Notes under the pieces: model-generated
Seen by the model: only the letters and a program-made list of their open reading frames with translations
Database searches by the model: none
Told to the model about the DNA's origin: nothing
NCBI GenBank assembly: GCA_035498035.1
Contig: DATKAN010000044.1
Location: 1-45,886 of the forward strand
Source of the DNA: Nitrospiria bacterium
Lineage (GTDB): Bacteria; Nitrospirota; Nitrospiria; JACQBZ01
Reading direction: 5' to 3'
Length of the DNA: 45,886 bases
Shown: positions 16,977 to 40,482 of the stretch, piece after piece
Layout: each line of letters begins with the position of its first letter
How positions within the stretch are numbered: the stretch's first letter is position 1
Made by a program: the position numbers and the translations under genes

Positions 16977-18200
16977 TTACTTTGAGGCCGATTTTCCACC
17001 GCCACCGCCGCACACCGTCGCAAACGACTCCTGCGGGGGTCCGTTCAAACCGTCTTTTTTAGCTTGATCGCAATTCTGAGCCAATAAGTAATCGGCCATC
17101 TTTTCCAATGCCCCGTAAGTGAATTTCTGGGCAAAATCCTGAATCATCGGCGAAACGGCCGGTGTGGCTTTTTGAACAAACTGAGGAACGATGAACGCAT
17201 TCGGATTTACGATGGATTCCATGATATATTCTTTGGGCGTTTTGGCATGGGCCTTCCCGGCCTTGACCTGGGCCTGGTACTCCGGAGAGGCGATGCGCCT
17301 CGCCGCATTGTGACCCTCGATCAGCAGTGGCCCGATCACACCGAATTTCGCGGTGGCGATCCCCGGAATCTGGTGACAGGCGAAACAGCCCATTTTCGTT
17401 ACAATCTGTTCCGGCGTATCGGAGGCCAAGGCCACAGGCGGTCCGGCAGGGGCGGCTGCCTGAGCCGCTGCCGGGGCACCCGCTTTGGGCCGTTCGGATT
17501 CCGGGATAAACTTTTCATAGGCCGCGCGAATCTCTTTCGCGGAGGGCGGTGTATTCCCTTCCCTGAAAAACAGCCAGGTATCCACCGCGATCAGCTGGTC
17601 GATCGTTAAACTGATCGGGGGCTTATGGATGGCCGGCATCGGGCTCTCTCTGTCGTTGGTGCCTTTTGTGCCAAAACCGGACACCACATAACAGGAGGGA
17701 CACACGTGAGATTCGGCGATATATTCCTCGGCGGTTGTGGCCCGCCCGCTTCCTTTAAAGGACTCGGTTTGGATCGTATCGGGCTTAAGATACTTTGGAT
17801 CCTTGATCCGCTCCGCGGACCGTTCGGCAATCCCAATCAGGTTCGGGGCACGGTCACCGATATCACCTTTCTTAAAGGTATGGCAAAGCGGACATTGCCC
17901 CGGACCGATGCCGCGCTCGGCAAACCCGCCGACCTTTCCGAAAATAATGCTTTCACCCATATCGGCCAATTTATCCACGGGCATGGAGTCCACCGCACCG
18001 GCCTCCATCTTTGGCGGGGGCAGGGGAACCTTACCTTCGACCTGGGGAAGCCAGTTTGAATAGGTGTCAAAGATTCCGGTCATGACCATGTAGAAACCGA
18101 TGGCCATCATGATACCCCGGAGTCTTGGAAGGAAGTAACCTATCAAAAACAAAACAACAGAGGATAGCAAAATTGTGACGGACAAAACCCCTTGAGTCAC
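16977..18200 (-). CDS. Membrane-anchored diheme cytochrome c
   Basis: 407 residues, GTG start with GGAG eight bases upstream. Two N-terminal hydrophobic stretches (about 5-24 and 28-46), then two cytochrome c domains: CPLCH (103-107) with Met188 in SPMPAI, and CFACH (272-276) with Met352 in SPMIQDF. An Ala/Pro-rich linker (238-258) separates them. The domains are internal repeats: EEYIAES..CPSCYVV in the first aligns with KEYIMES..NPNAFIV in the second. It directly follows the oxidase gene and is its best candidate electron-donating subunit. Confidence 0.85.
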   Translation of the reverse strand: MTQGVLSVTILLSSVVLFLIGYFLPRLRGIMMAIGFYMVMTGIFDTYSNWLPQVEGKVPLPPPKMEAGAVDSMPVDKLADMGESIIFGKVGGFAERGIGPGQCPLCHTFKKGDIGDRAPNLIGIAERSAERIKDPKYLKPDTIQTESFKGSGRATTAEEYIAESHVCPSCYVVSGFGTKGTNDRESPMPAIHKPPISLTIDQLIAVDTWLFFREGNTPPSAKEIRAAYEKFIPESERPKAGAPAAAQAAAPAGPPVALASDTPEQIVTKMGCFACHQIPGIATAKFGVIGPLLIEGHNAARRIASPEYQAQVKAGKAHAKTPKEYIMESIVNPNAFIVPQFVQKATPAVSPMIQDFAQKFTYGALEKMADYLLAQNCDQAKKDGLNGPPQESFATVCGGGGGKSASK

Positions 18201-18273: not shown

Positions 18274-20199
18274 TTACTCCGAACCCCCGGCCATTGCGGG
18301 TTTCTTGGCGATTTCCTTCCTCGCCTCGGCAACAGCATGTTTTGAGGTCAGTTCGCCCAGCCAGAACACAAACAGCACAAACAACCAGAAGGCCATTACA
18401 TTCAATGACATCATGTTGGCCGCAAACCCGATCGTGTGAGTAAAGGCCCACGGGGAGTTATCCCGAAACACCTCCATCACATGCCAGAACAAGCGCACCG
18501 AGGATCGAATATATCCCATCAAGGCCATCAACCATGTGAAGGAGACAGCCAGAGAGAACAACGCGTATTGAGAGCGGACCGATATTTTGCCCCACTCGAT
18601 CGGACCGGTCAACTTGGACCCCCTCATCATCGCGATGTTGATCGCGCTACCCACAAACAAGGTGGTCAAGGTTCCGACCACTTGTGGCACCGAAAGGCCG
18701 ACACGCACGTTTGCGGGAATAAAATATCCATAGATCGCGACCCACCAGTTGTTTACTAGGGCCACCGCAAACATCATCACCAGGGCCGCGTTGCCCCAAG
18801 TCTCCCATTTTACCGTTATAATTTTATTGCTCCGTTGATACATCAGGAAGGAAATGATCGTGGTCATGATCATGGTGTTCACGGCCCCGTTCTTGGCCGA
18901 CATCACGCCGAAGTTTCCGATCACGGGATGCTGCTGGCCGCCGATGGCTTTCAACTCGGCCGGGCGCATCACCAAGGTATGGGGTGTCAACCAGACCAGG
19001 AAGGCCGCCGTCGTGAGGAAAAGGATATACTTGATATATTTTTGGTACCGCTCCGCGCCCCTCATCCGTTCCATGCCGTTGAACAGATAATAGTTGGTCG
19101 AAAAGAACAGCGCGCCGATCAGCACGGCCTGGATGATGAACAACCAGGCCAGCAAACCGCCCATCAACGTGATGCCCATCTGTTGACGGAAGCCGTACAC
19201 TTCGCGCATAAGCCAGTAACCGGCGAAAGGCAGGGGAATCAACGCCCCGACCGCCATGAACATCGCGATGTACCCCATCCAATCGTAATAAGCCTTTTCT
19301 TCCTGGTTTTTGGCTGAAAGGAATTTGTAGGCCGCGTAGGCCGCGACGATTCCGCCGCCGAACACCATATTTCCGATGATCCGGTGGACATTGAGGGGGT
19401 TCCACAGCGCATTGTGCAGAACCGCCCAGAGATTTCCCAAATACCGACCCTTTTCATCCACTCCCGCCGGAGACATCATGAAGCTTGCCCATGAATTGGC
19501 CAGCATCATCAGGACCGATCCAAATACGTTGAGCAACACGCCCATGCTGGCATGCACCCATTTTGCGAAACCGCTGGCCATCCGGTCCCATCCGTAGTAA
19601 TAGAGGTACAGGGTGCCGCTCTCGGCCAGGAACAAAAGGGCATAGATGTGCATCACGGGCTTGAAAAGGGAGGAAAGATATTTAAAGAAATCAGGATAGA
19701 GGGTTATAAAACTGAAGATGAGTAATCCACCGAGTATCGCTGTGACGGAATACGCGGTGAGGCTGATTTTGACCATCAGATGGGCCAGATCATCATATTT
19801 CTTGGCCATCACAGGGTCCTTCACCATCAACCCGACCAGCTCGATGATCATGCAGAAGATCGGAACCGCCAGGACAAAGCTCCCGAAATAGAGGTGCTGT
19901 TGTGCGACCGACCAGATGATGACTCTATTTTCGCTGAGGGGATAAGGGAGGTTATAACTCGGATAATCGGAGGCTTTCAATTCGGGAGCGGGCTGGCCGG
20001 ATACGGGACCTTCTTTCTTGTAATATATATCCTTGGCCATCTCGACCTTCGGCGCGGTATCGGTCACGGCTTTGGTCGCGTCATCAGCCATCACAGGAGT
20101 TGAAAGAAGTGGCATAACAAGTGAGACCAACAACATCATCGCCACGGCCCCCAGCGAGATCAGGGACCAGACCCGGACTCTTCTGCTCATTGCCTTCAT
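18274..20199 (-). CDS. Cytochrome bd-like terminal oxidase, subunit I type
   Basis: 641 residues from the ATG at 20199 (GAGGGAG upstream). An N-terminal helix ending STPVMA looks like a signal peptide, then a periplasmic stretch of about 55 residues and many membrane helices (roughly 13-14). Similarity to CydA: WSVAQQHLYFGSFVLAVP with His102 (b595-ligand position), FLAESGTLYLYYYGWDRM with Glu193 and GWDR, ANSWASFMMSPAG, and NPLNVHRIIGNMVFGG with His272 (the CydA His186 position). The quinol-binding Q-loop is not recognisable and the protein is longer than CydA; no CydB gene follows. This fits the bd-like oxidases reported in Nitrospirota. Donor (cytochrome c versus quinol) and oxygen reduction are inferred. 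Confidence 0.85.
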   Translation of the reverse strand: MKAMSRRVRVWSLISLGAVAMMLLVSLVMPLLSTPVMADDATKAVTDTAPKVEMAKDIYYKKEGPVSGQPAPELKASDYPSYNLPYPLSENRVIIWSVAQQHLYFGSFVLAVPIFCMIIELVGLMVKDPVMAKKYDDLAHLMVKISLTAYSVTAILGGLLIFSFITLYPDFFKYLSSLFKPVMHIYALLFLAESGTLYLYYYGWDRMASGFAKWVHASMGVLLNVFGSVLMMLANSWASFMMSPAGVDEKGRYLGNLWAVLHNALWNPLNVHRIIGNMVFGGGIVAAYAAYKFLSAKNQEEKAYYDWMGYIAMFMAVGALIPLPFAGYWLMREVYGFRQQMGITLMGGLLAWLFIIQAVLIGALFFSTNYYLFNGMERMRGAERYQKYIKYILFLTTAAFLVWLTPHTLVMRPAELKAIGGQQHPVIGNFGVMSAKNGAVNTMIMTTIISFLMYQRSNKIITVKWETWGNAALVMMFAVALVNNWWVAIYGYFIPANVRVGLSVPQVVGTLTTLFVGSAINIAMMRGSKLTGPIEWGKISVRSQYALFSLAVSFTWLMALMGYIRSSVRLFWHVMEVFRDNSPWAFTHTIGFAANMMSLNVMAFWLFVLFVFWLGELTSKHAVAEARKEIAKKPAMAGGSE

Positions 20200-20375: not shown

Positions 20376-20492
20376 TTAGCGCAAAATAAAGAAGTAATCA
20401 AGCCCTTGAATTTTCATGAAAAACCAGTCCTCCAGCTGAAAATATGCTATCCAAACCACAAGCATCACGACAAAAGCGATCACCGTCTTCAT
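20376..20492 (-). CDS. 38-residue single-helix membrane microprotein of the oxidase operon
   Basis: ATG at 20492 with AAAGGTGA upstream; 38 codons, then TAA. It begins MKTVIAFVVMLVVWIAYF, a strong membrane helix, followed by an amphipathic stretch rich in aromatic residues (QLEDWFFMKIQG, LDYFFILR). Size and topology resemble small accessory subunits such as CydX, CcoQ or CtaJ-type peptides. It lies between a strong promoter and the oxidase gene in the same orientation. Homology to any named family is not established here. Confidence 0.7.
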   Translation of the reverse strand: MKTVIAFVVMLVVWIAYFQLEDWFFMKIQGLDYFFILR

Positions 20493-20537
20493 GTCAATCA
20501 CCTTTCTTCAAATAAACCGGGAAAATCGTACCCAGTT

Positions 20538-20639
20538 TTAATTATGGTAAACCGCTCCGAACCAATAGAAGAACCAGATCGAGATAATACAGACGATGAT
20601 ATACAAAATCGGTCCTGCGTTCTTACGGATTTTATCCAT
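20538..20639 (-). CDS. 33-residue single-helix membrane microprotein of the oxidase operon
   Basis: ATG at 20639 with AAGGAG five bases upstream; 33 codons, then TAA. A short basic N terminus (MDKIRKNAGP) leads into the helix ILYIIVCIISIWFFYWFGAV. It sits directly downstream of a near-consensus promoter and 45 bp before the second microprotein gene. Probably a small oxidase-associated subunit, inferred from position and topology. Confidence 0.7.
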   Translation of the reverse strand: MDKIRKNAGPILYIIVCIISIWFFYWFGAVYHN

Positions 20640-20685
20640 TTCTTTCTCCTTAGGACGGACGCCCATTCGGCTTAACAACGGCAGG

Positions 20686-20767: not shown

Positions 20768-21688
20768 TTAGGGAGGAGATCCCGACTTCGCACACCGGAA
20801 CCCGATCGTCACATCGCGGTATTCCGGGGACATCTTAAAACGGATCGAGGTTTGTGCACGCTTGATCGAATCGTTCCAGGACGCTCCGCGGATGACCCGG
20901 CTCTCCCCCGACGAGACTCCCAGAGGGTTACTCACCGGAAGAATGCGATATGAATCCTGGTTAAACCAATCCGCCACCCATTCCATCGCATTGCCCGCCA
21001 GATCATAAACTCCGTACGGGCTGACGTCCTTCCTGAATTGATTTACCGGAGCTGTATATGGCGCGCCGTCGTCCCCCAATAAATTGGCATATTCGGATCG
21101 TTCCTCGTTGCCCCAAGGCCATTTTCGTTTGTCGGTCCCCTTGGCCGCCTTCTCCCATTCCGCCTCGCTCGGAAGGCGCTTTCCCTTCCATTGACAATAC
21201 TCGACCGCGTCATCCCAGGAAACTCCCACAACCGGGTTCATGGCCCGGATGAAGAGCGGGATATCCTCTGTCACGCTCGCCGAAAGATACCCGGCCAGCC
21301 GGGGTTTCCGGTGCCCGGTCAGTCCGATGAATTGATAAAACTGCGCAAAGGTAACCTCGTACTTATCGATAGAAAATCCGTCGAGATAGACCATCCTTAC
21401 GGGCTTCGCGTCATAGGATCCGTCGTTGCTGCCCATGAAAAACTCGCCCGCGGGGATGAAAACCATGGATTCGAAATCCTCGCCGATCTTGGCCTGTTTT
21501 ACTTCAAGCTCGGCTTTCCGAGACTCCTCCTCCACCTTGGCCAGTTTGGTCGCCAGAGGCGTGTATCCCTGTTCGGTTTCCTGCCTCTCCGGCTCGTGCG
21601 GTCCGGATTTCTGGCGGATTCCGATCTGAATAATAACCAGGATCGCAATGACCAACGCCAAATAAATGCCGATCAAATATTTGCTCAT
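20768..21688 (-). CDS. Membrane-anchored SUMF1-fold (formylglycine-generating-enzyme-like) protein 1
   Basis: 306 residues: N-terminal helix (about 4-24), a charged probably coiled segment (45-72), then a SUMF1/FGE-sulfatase domain to the end. Signatures: FIPAGEFFMGSNDG, YEVTFAQFYQFI, NPVVGVSWDDAVEYCQWKGK, LPSEAEWEKAAKG, PYGVYDLAGNAMEWVADW and IGFRCAKSG. The two active-site cysteines of true formylglycine-generating enzymes (the CxxxxC near RYR) are missing; the region reads IRGASWNDSIKRAQTSIRFK. A catalytic FGE role is therefore unlikely; a binding or assembly role outside the inner membrane is more plausible. Its stop is just upstream of the oxidase-operon promoter. Confidence 0.85.
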   Translation of the reverse strand: MSKYLIGIYLALVIAILVIIQIGIRQKSGPHEPERQETEQGYTPLATKLAKVEEESRKAELEVKQAKIGEDFESMVFIPAGEFFMGSNDGSYDAKPVRMVYLDGFSIDKYEVTFAQFYQFIGLTGHRKPRLAGYLSASVTEDIPLFIRAMNPVVGVSWDDAVEYCQWKGKRLPSEAEWEKAAKGTDKRKWPWGNEERSEYANLLGDDGAPYTAPVNQFRKDVSPYGVYDLAGNAMEWVADWFNQDSYRILPVSNPLGVSSGESRVIRGASWNDSIKRAQTSIRFKMSPEYRDVTIGFRCAKSGSPP

Positions 21689-21909: not shown

Positions 21910-22116
21910 TCACCGTCGACGACCCGTCACGGCCACCTTGGGGTCCGCCATACCCACTTCCCCGTTCGAACCTTCACGGGATGACCAGGCGATCGTCTCG
22001 TCTCTTTTCTGTCGGGTGACCCGGGATCGGTACAGCATCTGACCGACAAAAATTCCGGCCATGAACACGGCACCCGTATAAAACAGAACATAGACCGCAT
22101 AAAAGAAATGCTTCAC
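21910..22116 (-). CDS. Small membrane protein, YTGAVFMAG family, copy 1
   Basis: 68 residues from the GTG at 22116, which has GAGGGGG eight bases upstream and aligns with the start of the 22563-22682 paralogue; a GTG seven codons earlier overlaps the ribosome site. It contains one helix, with core FYTGAVFMAGIFVGQML, then a basic stretch (YRSRVTRQKRDE) and a polar tail. It shares the core with the next two genes. Function unknown. Confidence 0.7.
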   Translation of the reverse strand: MKHFFYAVYVLFYTGAVFMAGIFVGQMLYRSRVTRQKRDETIAWSSREGSNGEVGMADPKVAVTGRRR

Positions 22117-22210
22117 TCTGTTCACCCCCTCAACCACTGCGGCTCGTTTATAACGAGCCGATTAAAATCGAAAGATCCGCCCCCGACCATCCGGCACTCT
22201 TGAGCCGGGC

Positions 22211-22459
22211 TCATCTTTTTAAGGTCAGTTCATCCGATTCGCGAACCTCCGTCAGTTCGGACTCCGACCCGTCCACCGAAGGGGCCGCTTTCGCGGAGAA
22301 CCTCTCCTCCAGCTTTTCGCCGATGTACACGCCGATCATAAATACGGCCCCCGTATACACCAGCACATAGAGGGCATAAAGCTGTCCCACCAGCATGCCC
22401 GCCATGAAAACGGCGGCCGTGTAGACGCCAATCGAGACCAGAGAAAAAATACGCCGCAT
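22211..22459 (-). CDS. Small membrane protein, YTGAVFMAG family, internally duplicated copy
   Basis: 82 residues. The helix core appears twice in a row: VYTAAVFMAGMLVGQL and then VYTGAVFMIGVYIGEKL, so it is a tandem duplication giving two helices in one protein. An acidic/polar C-terminal tail follows. Same orientation as its neighbours, 94 bp from copy 1. Function unknown. Confidence 0.72.
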   Translation of the reverse strand: MRRIFSLVSIGVYTAAVFMAGMLVGQLYALYVLVYTGAVFMIGVYIGEKLEERFSAKAAPSVDGSESELTEVRESDELTLKR

Positions 22460-22562
22460 GAACTGAATGACCTTTCTCAGCGCTGACTTTAAACCCGCTT
22501 AAAATAGGATCGCGGAGAGGAGGCGTTGACGATGTTCCAGGCGAATCGCCGCCGCCCGGCGT

Positions 22563-22682
22563 TCATGGCCCTCGACGATTTCCCCAGGCGCGTTCCAACT
22601 TTTCTCCCACATACATCCCGGCCACAAAAACGGCGGCGGAGTAGATGGAAACGGAAAGGGCGTAAAAAAAGAAATGGACCAT
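22563..22682 (-). CDS. Small membrane protein, YTGAVFMAG family, shortest copy
   Basis: 39 residues, ATG at 22682. After MVHFFFYALSV comes the family core IYSAAVFVAGMYVGEKL and a short basic tail. The longer open frame covering the same bases (22499-22690) is out of frame and has unlikely composition. A near-perfect promoter at 22724-22753 drives it, making it the first gene of the three-paralogue run. Function unknown. Confidence 0.7.
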   Translation of the reverse strand: MVHFFFYALSVSIYSAAVFVAGMYVGEKLERAWGNRRGP

Positions 22683-22723: not shown

Positions 22724-22753
22724 ATTATAAAAGTATTACAATAGACCTGTCAA
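22724..22753 (-). promoter_or_regulatory. Near-consensus sigma70 promoter for the small-membrane-protein cluster
   Basis: Minus-strand TTGACA (22748-22753), 18 bp spacer, TATAAT (22724-22729), both boxes perfect. The start is expected near 22717, about 35 nt before the 39-residue gene. Confidence 0.8.
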
Positions 22754-22821: not shown

Positions 22822-22849
22822 TTGACATTTGACGGATCCTTGATAGAAT
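22822..22849 (+). promoter_or_regulatory. Divergent sigma70-type promoter
   Basis: TTGACA (22822-22827), 16 bp spacer, TAGAAT (22844-22849), directed at the small gene starting at 22863/22884. Confidence 0.65.
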
Positions 22850-22883
22850 GGGGTGCTGTTTAATGGCCATTCGGATTCGCACC

Positions 22884-23015
22884 ATGGATACACCGGAAAC
22901 ACCCGAACAGAGAAAGAGAAATACCCCCACCTTTGACTTTATCGTCCTGCTGGGTATGGTGGCAAACCTCATACTGGCCGTTTTCCTGATCCTCTATTAC
23001 TTCGGTTTTTTCTAA
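22884..23015 (+). CDS. Small single-helix membrane protein
   Basis: 43 residues from ATG 22884 (50 if the in-frame ATG at 22863, almost at the expected transcription start, is used). A hydrophilic N terminus (MDTPETPEQRKRNTPTFDF) precedes a C-terminal helix (IVLLGMVANLILAVFLILYY) and ends GFF. This is a tail-anchor-like layout, unlike the neighbouring YTGAVFMAG family. It is read divergently from that cluster and convergently with the second SUMF1 gene. No homology recognised. Confidence 0.6.
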   Translation: MDTPETPEQRKRNTPTFDFIVLLGMVANLILAVFLILYYFGFF

Positions 23016-23067: not shown

Positions 23068-23970
23068 TCACCCGCCCGGGGGGACACCCTTCGCGCACCG
23101 AAACCCGATGACCGCGCTGGTTTGGTGCGGGGCCGCCATAAAACGCTTGGCCACTCTTGCATTAACCGAAGAATCATCCCAGGAGCCACCCCGATAGACC
23201 CTGAATTTTCCCTTTTCGGGCCCTTTGGGAACCTTGAAAGGAGCGTTTTTGTAATAGTCCGCATCATACCAATCGGCCACCCACTCCGCGACATTACCGG
23301 CCATATCGTATAGCCCATAGGGACTTCGTCCAGATTCAAAACGCCCTGGGGGGGCCAGAAATTTATAGCCGTCCTCTTCCCCCGCAAGGTTGGCCGCTTT
23401 TTCGACAAAATCATTTCCCCACGGCCATCGGAAGCTTTGGTCGCCCCCCGCCGCTTTCTCCCACTCGGCTTCGGTAGGCAACCGTTTCTCGGCCCACTGA
23501 CAATAATCTTGCGCGGTATTCCACGATACACCCACCACGGGCAGTTCGGGCTTGGTGATCAAGGACAGATCCTCCTGAAAAACGGGGACCACCGGCTTGG
23601 GATATTGGGTGGCCACCGAGAATTTCGAGAATTGCGCTTGGGTGACCTCCTTCTGGTCGATATAAAAGGCCGGAAGGTAAACCGGATGCTGCGGCATTTC
23701 ATCCAGATCCCCGCCCGAAGCCGGACTGCCCATTTGGAAAGGTCCCTCCGGGATCAAGACCATTTCCGAACCATCCTCCGTCGGGATTGTTTTGTACCGG
23801 CTGAAGTCCTGGAAACCGCTTTTTCCTTTTTGGGTTTGGTCTACTGGAATGCCTTGATTTTTGGAATCCGACCGGCTGGTTTTCCACGCTTCATAGATAA
23901 AGATAACGATCATGAGAATAAAAGCAGCGAAGGCGATGAGCGATCCGTAATAAAACGCATCCTTCTTCAT
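23068..23970 (-). CDS. Membrane-anchored SUMF1-fold protein 2
   Basis: 300 residues: N-terminal helix (about 7-27), polar linker, then a complete SUMF1 domain (LIPEGPFQMGSPASGGDLDE, KEVTQAQFSKF, LPVVGVSWNTAQDYCQWAEK, LPTEAEWEKAAGG, GLYDMAGNVAEWVADWYD, YRGGSWDD, VIGFRCAKG). It is a clear paralogue of 20768-21688 and likewise lacks the catalytic cysteine pair. AAAGGA precedes the ATG at 23970. The two copies bracket the small-membrane-protein genes. Confidence 0.86.
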   Translation of the reverse strand: MKKDAFYYGSLIAFAAFILMIVIFIYEAWKTSRSDSKNQGIPVDQTQKGKSGFQDFSRYKTIPTEDGSEMVLIPEGPFQMGSPASGGDLDEMPQHPVYLPAFYIDQKEVTQAQFSKFSVATQYPKPVVPVFQEDLSLITKPELPVVGVSWNTAQDYCQWAEKRLPTEAEWEKAAGGDQSFRWPWGNDFVEKAANLAGEEDGYKFLAPPGRFESGRSPYGLYDMAGNVAEWVADWYDADYYKNAPFKVPKGPEKGKFRVYRGGSWDDSSVNARVAKRFMAAPHQTSAVIGFRCAKGVPPGG

Positions 23971-38814: not shown

Positions 38815-40482
38815 ATGTCGGATGAAACTTTAACAGCCCAAGATCGCGAAAATCTCGCCCCGTTTTTCACTAACCTAGACAGGGGCGTCTTCGGGCTTAA
38901 ACTGCCCCAGGAAGTCGCGGGGGCGCTATTCTCCCGGTACAGCCGTTCGGCGAAGGATCTTCGTCGGATTTTCTTGGATGAATTTCTGGGCGAGATGGGA
39001 GCATTCCACGCGCCGACAGCCTCAGACAATACCGACGCGTTGAAAAAAGCCCGCGCTTTTTACGACCGTGTGCTGGTGGGTTACGGGGACGATTCTGTCG
39101 CCCAATTGGGAGGAGCCCATATCGCCTGCGAGGGGATCTCCAACGTCGCGGCCAATCTGATCGAAGATGCGAGGATCGGGCTCGCGCCGCTGGAAAAATC
39201 CACGCGGTACGTTCGCTTCGACAAAAAAGGTCCCAATGGCGAATACTTGTTTTACAAAGAACCCCGCATCATGGCTTCAAAACATGCCCCAAAATACTTG
39301 AACGTCATGAATCTACTTTTTCAAACTTACGCTAGCCAAATGGATCCCCTGATCAATTTCATCGCCCGGCGCCTGCCCATCACCGATATGCCATTCAAAC
39401 ATCCTCAAACCGGCGAGGCCTTGGCCTATGCGGATCTGGGACGAAATTCCGAATTGAAAAAATGGGCCCAGACCGCCTACCGAGCCACGATACGAGCCCA
39501 CGCCTGCGACCTTCTCCGGGGCTACCTGCCGGCTTCGACAAAGACCAATGTCGGTCTGTTCGGCGTAGGCCAGGCTTTCGAATATCTATTAACTAAACTC
39601 TACTCCCATCCCTTAACTGAAATGCGCCAAATGGCCAAACAGATGCAAGAGGAATTAAATGCGTTGATTCCTTCTTTTGTCAAACGGGCCGGGTCCAACA
39701 GCTATCTCACCGAAACGTACCTAAACACCCGTGCATTCGTACAAAAGGAGACGGCCGGCATGAACCGTGCGCCGTCGGAAGCGGTCGCCCTGGTGGATTA
39801 CGACGGCGATGCGGAAGAAAAAGTCCTGTCGGCCATCCTCTATCCCCACACACGGCTTCCGTTGACCCAGCTCCGGGCCGAGGTCAAGTCCTGGAATTCG
39901 GAGCGCCGGGCCCGATTGATTAGCGAATACCTGGAACGTCGAAAACACCGACGGGACAAACCGGGACGGGCCTTCGAACAGGTTTATTACACCTTCGACC
40001 TTTTGGGCAATCTCGGAATGTACCGGGATCTTCACCGTCATCGGATCCTTTCCCAGGAGCGTCAGGATTTTGATGTGGCGTACGGTTATGACACCCCCAA
40101 CGAATTGGCCGAGATTGGGTTTAAGGAAAATTTCGACCGGTGCATGGCCCAAGCGGCCGATCTCTATAAACGTATCTACGCCGAGCTTCCTCATGAAGCA
40201 CAATATGTCGTTCCCTTCGCCTACCGGGTTCGCTGGTATATGAAGATGAATCTTCGGGAGCTGGTCCATATCGGCGAGCTTCGCACGATGCCCCAAGGGC
40301 ATTCCGATTACCGGTCCATGGTCCAGGAGATGTGCCGGAAAGCGGATACCGTGCATCCAACGCTGTTTCGGTATGCCAAGTTCGTAGATTGGAAGGAGTA
40401 CCACCTGGGACGCCTTCAGTCCGAGATGCGAACGGAGTATAAAAAATCCATCCTGGATCCAAACTCCGACCGTAAGGCCTGA
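38815..40482 (+). CDS. Long ThyX-like protein (FAD-dependent thymidylate synthase family)
   Basis: 555 residues, about twice a normal ThyX. Two ThyX-like halves are visible: GYGDDSVAQLGGAHIACEGIS...STRYVRF (about 88-135) and FDLLGNLGMYRDLHRHRILS-QERQDF (about 395-420), where RHRILSQERQ replaces the standard RHRxxSxNExSxR signature. True ThyX makes dTMP from dUMP with FAD, NADPH and methylene-folate. The altered signature makes catalytic equivalence uncertain; the second half may be a degenerate or specialised copy. AAAAGGAT precedes the ATG. Confidence 0.75.
   Translation: MSDETLTAQDRENLAPFFTNLDRGVFGLKLPQEVAGALFSRYSRSAKDLRRIFLDEFLGEMGAFHAPTASDNTDALKKARAFYDRVLVGYGDDSVAQLGGAHIACEGISNVAANLIEDARIGLAPLEKSTRYVRFDKKGPNGEYLFYKEPRIMASKHAPKYLNVMNLLFQTYASQMDPLINFIARRLPITDMPFKHPQTGEALAYADLGRNSELKKWAQTAYRATIRAHACDLLRGYLPASTKTNVGLFGVGQAFEYLLTKLYSHPLTEMRQMAKQMQEELNALIPSFVKRAGSNSYLTETYLNTRAFVQKETAGMNRAPSEAVALVDYDGDAEEKVLSAILYPHTRLPLTQLRAEVKSWNSERRARLISEYLERRKHRRDKPGRAFEQVYYTFDLLGNLGMYRDLHRHRILSQERQDFDVAYGYDTPNELAEIGFKENFDRCMAQAADLYKRIYAELPHEAQYVVPFAYRVRWYMKMNLRELVHIGELRTMPQGHSDYRSMVQEMCRKADTVHPTLFRYAKFVDWKEYHLGRLQSEMRTEYKKSILDPNSDRKA

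Follow-up and report, generated by a model that had tools for sequence, protein, structure and literature searches.

The window analyzed here, a 45,886-nucleotide stretch of DNA from a Nitrospiria bacterium, holds an array of three tiny genes, C, B and A, which are real, paralogous and co-conserved and which sit inside a conserved cluster of genes for a bd-like oxidase and c-type cytochromes. The best explanation, to which we assign a probability of roughly 0.55, is that their products are lineage-specific accessory subunits or assembly/stability factors of a membrane complex comprising the bd-like oxidase and three c-type cytochromes. We favor this explanation because the array is co-inherited with one oxidase clade, lies within the cluster and is under strong constraint. 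What is new is the duplicated helix array as a set of putative small accessory membrane proteins of a respiratory oxidase; the OR-N CydAA' oxidases as such have already been published. In Nitrospirota, bd-like oxidases are presumed to act as the terminal oxidases of major nitrifiers and of organisms related to them, and the subunit composition of these enzymes is unconfirmed. Undescribed, conserved tiny membrane proteins that are mutually exclusive with an adjacent second oxidase gene provide a concrete list of candidates for the missing subunits, as well as a case of helix duplication yielding putative accessory parts of a respiratory complex.

Three small coding genes and their promoter

As the initial annotation had claimed, three adjacent genes carry four copies of one helix motif (YSAAVFVAGMYVG, YTAAVFMAGMLVG, YTGAVFMIGVYIG and YTGAVFMAGIFVG), all on the minus strand, and a perfect-consensus promoter lies ahead of the set:

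22724..22753, minus strand: array promoter, sigma-70-type TTGACA-18 bp-TATAAT; conserved in genomes G000-G005, with diverging flanks
22563..22682, minus strand: protein C, 39 aa, one transmembrane (TM) helix, HxxxY...F-x-x-G-x-x-x-G-E-x-x-E-R; dN/dS 0.137
22211..22459, minus strand: protein B, 82 aa, with two helical hydrophobic stretches, of which the second bears the family motif; dN/dS 0.080
21910..22116, minus strand: protein A, 68 aa, GTG start at 22116, MKHxFYxxYVxFYxGAxFxxGxFxGQ with invariant K2 and H3; dN/dS 0.126

For the dN/dS values (Nei-Gojobori method), the window was pooled with five relatives from its own family, and in the +1 and +2 frames of the same DNA from these six genomes the pattern was reversed. 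C, B and A are thus genuine coding genes under purifying selection. A 63-aa frame (22690-22499) overlies gene C and must be spurious, since the C frame shows coding dN/dS and the +1 and +2 frames show the opposite; the 39-residue gene had indeed been hidden beneath a false longer frame. In the relatives, the aligned start codon of A is GTG, TTG or ATG. Both the -35 and the -10 box of the promoter (22753-22724) are kept in all six family genomes, while the neighboring bases drift.

Paralogy and predicted topology

An invariant F-x-x-G-x-x-x-G core, mostly followed by Q/E/R/K-x-x-E-R, is present in 38 of the 38 members of the A, B and C families. Profiles built from the orthologues of each protein detect the other two with median scores of 20-43 bits, as compared to maxima of 7-14 bits for shuffled sequences; in the window's family, the A profile matches B at about 1e-15 and C at about 1e-11. 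Since the profiles find one another well above shuffled controls, we regard C, B and A as paralogues, as had been proposed. A harsher control, in which residues were shuffled within hydrophobicity classes, gave scores with medians of around 0-2 bits that reached 29 bits at most, so that a few divergent C and B members are individually inseparable from it. Outside the shared core, a histidine near the N-terminus is conserved in C, as are K2 and H3 in A.

The tandem duplication proposed for one of the genes is only partly borne out. In the window's family both helices of B carry the motif clearly. In the other families the second helix still does so, whereas the first retains G-x-[LI]-Y but has lost most of the motif; a tandem duplication within gene B is therefore plausible but unproven. 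A single AlphaFold2 model of B, calculated from 13 sequences, shows an unbroken helix from residue 2 to 57 rather than a hairpin, with high local confidence and a low pTM of 0.45.

The conserved small-xxx-small (GxxxG) face suggests helix packing, and it is this face only that prompts the reading of the array as an oligomeric element. The positive charges following the motif suggest that the C-terminus is cytoplasmic.

Pfam and NCBIfam scans and sequence searches of the PDB returned nothing beyond chance-level matches for A, B and C, in keeping with the earlier impression that the array belongs to no described family. Matches to Oxidored_q3 (E 0.015) and XapX (E 0.031) were discarded as lying below the curated cut-offs. 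A literature search combining small membrane proteins, Nitrospirota and terminal oxidases, limited to open-licence papers, yielded no description of these tiny proteins.

Distribution of the array

Using the B profile, we found the trio in 14 of 270 Nitrospiria genomes, distributed over five families (f1, f3, f5, f6 and f7); the helix proteins thus have homologues elsewhere, a point that the initial annotation had left to a profile search of related genomes. A fifteenth match, in G100 (E 6e-4), covers one helix in an interrupted frame and is probably due to chance. Searching 396 genomes of the phylum with the A profile added no further family. The order C-B-A is identical in distant families. 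Within family f1, the trio is present in five of six relatives of the window genome, the exception being G006, which is 69% complete. Carriers of the array are uncultured lineages, mostly groundwater Nitrospirota metagenome-assembled genomes (MAGs) as judged from the visible record titles; among the 270 genomes of the class, the array was not found in Nitrospiraceae such as N. defluvii.

The gene cluster around the array

The array is flanked on either side by a gene for a protein with an FGE-type domain, followed downstream by the oxidase and cytochrome genes:

23068..23970, minus strand: FGE2, SUMF1/FGE-sulfatase-domain protein with N-terminal TM anchor (PF03781, 1.6e-58); upstream border of the array
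22848..23015, plus strand: small protein of 55 aa with C-terminal TM helix and probable start at 22884; oriented divergently to the array, with a promoter-like site of its own at 22822-22849; array-less clusters conserve it as well
20768..21688, minus strand: FGE1, second SUMF1/FGE-sulfatase-domain protein with N-terminal TM anchor (PF03781, 6.6e-57); downstream border of the array
20538..20678, minus strand: sm46, small single-TM protein next to the oxidase
20376..20501, minus strand: sm41, small single-TM protein next to the oxidase
18274..20199, minus strand: cytochrome bd-like oxidase subunit, CydA-related, 641 aa (PF01654, 9.5e-14)
16977..18200, minus strand: membrane-anchored c-type cytochrome, 407 aa
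15990..16904, minus strand: c-type cytochrome, 304 aa
14256..15965, minus strand: c-type cytochrome fused to an ethylbenzene-dehydrogenase-type heme-b (DMSO reductase II gamma-like) domain, 569 aa

The order FGE2-C-B-A-FGE1-sm46-sm41-bd-like gene-three cytochromes c is common to families whose oxidases are 71-95% identical. In the main clusters the array always lies between FGE2 and FGE1; in G008 the cluster is split between contigs, and in G012 FGE2 was not found beside the trio. Being embedded in a conserved bd-like oxidase/c-type cytochrome cluster and present in five families, the array is not a stand-alone element.

The small genes sm46 and sm41 (20376-20678), which have no NCBIfam match, are conserved in Nitrospiraceae too and are candidates for universal small subunits of these bd-like oxidases. 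The opposite-strand TM protein of the 22848-23015 type is found in most clusters, between FGE2 and the array or, in array-less clusters, between FGE1 and sm46; in locus L038 it lies on the same strand and outside. Elsewhere in the window, positions 38815-40482 encode a 555-aa protein with two Thy1 (ThyX) stretches.

That FGE-domain genes directly border the array on both sides raises the possibility that the tiny proteins are not oxidase subunits, and that they serve instead as scaffolds in the membrane or as helpers in maturation on the periplasmic side, acting on the TM-anchored FGE-domain proteins and the cytochromes c. A-type paralogues outside the cluster point in the same direction, being found beside other redox or envelope genes. 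In G004 (C85) and G003 (C93), at loci L158:1169-1411 and L159:264-485, such a paralogue lies next to a porin-like gene; this paralogue, MKQFFLGFYAVSFSAAVFMAG, overlaps the start region of the gene for the porin-like outer membrane protein. In G008 (C28, L160:5314-5499), the gene for an A-type helix protein has as neighbors three CarboxypepD-type genes, a radical SAM/SPASM-like gene and a gene for a 1636-aa multicopper-oxidase-like protein. The names of these neighbors were read from their sequences rather than from a family scan, those of the CarboxypepD type by tblastn. These outlying paralogues count against an exclusive role with the oxidase. However, FGE2 and FGE1 also occur, mutually adjacent, in the array-less clusters of Nitrospiraceae and of family f13, so the FGE proteins do not need the array, and we consider a scaffolding or maturation role improbable, if by no means negligible.

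The oxidase and the clusters without the array

The product of 18274-20199 matches the CydA domain PF01654 over profile positions 10-238 of 418 only, with 75.9 bits in the genome scan; a phmmer search against the PDB gave no hit at E 0.01. In a local tree with relatives from Nitrospirota, the array-bearing oxidases form a single clade (98/100 support), indicating that array and oxidase were inherited together.

In families f2 and f12 (Nitrospiraceae-type) and f13, the same cluster lacks the array; FGE2 adjoins FGE1, and upstream lie a second bd-like gene and a gene for a membrane protein with a glycine zipper. The glycine-zipper protein has about 110-130 residues and is encoded upstream of FGE2 (for instance L047:9247-9579 and L046:9437-9817). 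We compared 80 named loci, counting only those with at least 8.5 kb of upstream sequence. Each of the six complete array loci has one bd-like gene and no glycine-zipper gene, and thus lacks the paired second CydA-like subunit that marks the OR-N CydAA' type; in the 57 complete oxidase loci without the array, there are always two or three bd-like genes, and the glycine-zipper gene is always present. As the array oxidases make up one clade, only a small number of evolutionary events underlie this contrast. Families f8-f11 do not clearly follow either pattern, having neither the array nor a second bd-like gene adjacent on the same strand.

Another locus, L074, has the cytochrome only and no oxidase. 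It contains a second version, 55% identical, of the 407-aa cytochrome c, belongs to the same MAG as L070, and has neither a bd-like nor an FGE gene in the available flanking sequence.

Beyond the cluster, a different contig of the window genome carries two additional bd-like genes, and the genome gives one COX1 match; most array genomes likewise carry further bd-like genes elsewhere. Family f5 does not: in each of its three genomes, the cluster's own gene is the single CydA homologue, and CydB was not found. No heme-copper oxidase was found in G010 (96% complete), whose cluster, given its sole CydA homologue and the lack of a CydB hit, therefore holds the only recognized bd or heme-copper oxygen reductase. 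For COX1, G015 gave only a short, sub-threshold match and G019 gave clear matches. The array as a marker of nitrite oxidation was ruled out: array genomes match TIGR03479 (type II DMSO reductase alpha) with at most about 75 bits, as compared to 200-215 bits at the nitrite-oxidoreductase-like genes of N. defluvii.

In complete loci, the array and the second bd-like gene strictly exclude each other. This exclusion, as well as the f5 genomes with their single CydA homologue and no CydB, would fit a bd-like cytochrome c oxidase that consists of a single CydA-type subunit and tiny paralogous helices, with the four helices structurally replacing the second bd-like subunit (CydA'). We regard such a replacement as quite unlikely, because the exclusion traces back to one array clade, the genomes of the other array families contain additional bd-like genes at other places, the one CydA could serve just as well as a homodimer, and f8-f11 do with neither the array nor an adjacent same-strand second bd-like gene.

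A proposed role in the oxidase complex

For C, B and A as accessory subunits or assembly/stability factors, we infer topology, helix packing, physical association and effect on activity as follows. Each motif helix would span the membrane, its charged C-terminus lying on the cytoplasmic side, and the invariant F-x-x-G-x-x-x-G face would pack against the paralogues, the oxidase core or both. Such packing may stabilize the complex, much as in canonical bd oxidases, where CydX/CydS and CydH have this effect. The presumed association with the oxidase is favored by the mutual exclusion of the array and the upstream pair of second bd-like gene and glycine-zipper gene. Against it stand the array's own promoter, the position of FGE1 between the array and the oxidase genes, the fact that Nitrospiraceae run the same cluster without the array, and the single continuous helix that AlphaFold2 gives for B. 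Small membrane regulators or stress peptides (type I toxin-like and holin-like ones included) that have ended up in the cluster by happenstance would match the size, hydrophobicity and strong promoter of their own, but are very hard to reconcile with an ordered trio in five families, inside a respiratory cluster and under purifying selection, and with the fact that, at the thresholds applied, neither Pfam nor NCBIfam gave a match to peptides of this kind.

Comparison with known systems

In bd oxidases, the single-helix subunit CydX/CydS is needed for assembly and activity (PMC8951039). Like protein C, CydX/CydS/AppX and CydH (CydY) have a single TM helix and fewer than 50 residues and are tied to a bd-type oxidase gene cluster. 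By hydropathy and length, C (39 aa) and the core of A fall within the CydX/CydS size range (a single TM helix, about 30-50 aa), and B has two hydrophobic stretches. No match of A, B or C to a CydX/CydS family model was obtained in Pfam, NCBIfam or among PDB chains, and the role of CydX/CydS and CydH in assembly and stability is an analogy for the role proposed here, no sequence relationship having been found. The array differs from these subunits in having no Pfam or NCBIfam match and in consisting of three paralogous GxxxG genes, one of them with two helices, under a promoter of their own. It is, moreover, encoded upstream between FGE-domain genes, its oxidase is bd-like, and sm46 and sm41 lie nearer to the oxidase gene.

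Terminal oxidase (TO) complexes of Candidatus Manganitrophaceae likewise combine bd-like proteins with multi-cytochrome clusters, and TO_1 is described as having a periplasmic cytochrome b (PMC9040806); in the searched passages on these complexes, tiny helix proteins were not found to be mentioned.

Close counterparts are also the OR-N-type CydAA' oxidases of Nitrospirota and Nitrospinota, which have been proposed to be cytochrome c oxidases and whose subunit composition is unconfirmed (PMC10839748, PMC12342949). The window's oxidase is about 64-69% identical to its Nitrospiraceae counterparts, and in both, cytochrome c genes follow downstream. In contrast to the OR-N CydAA' clusters, however, the array clusters do not have the second bd-like gene and the glycine-zipper gene upstream; they carry the C-B-A trio instead.
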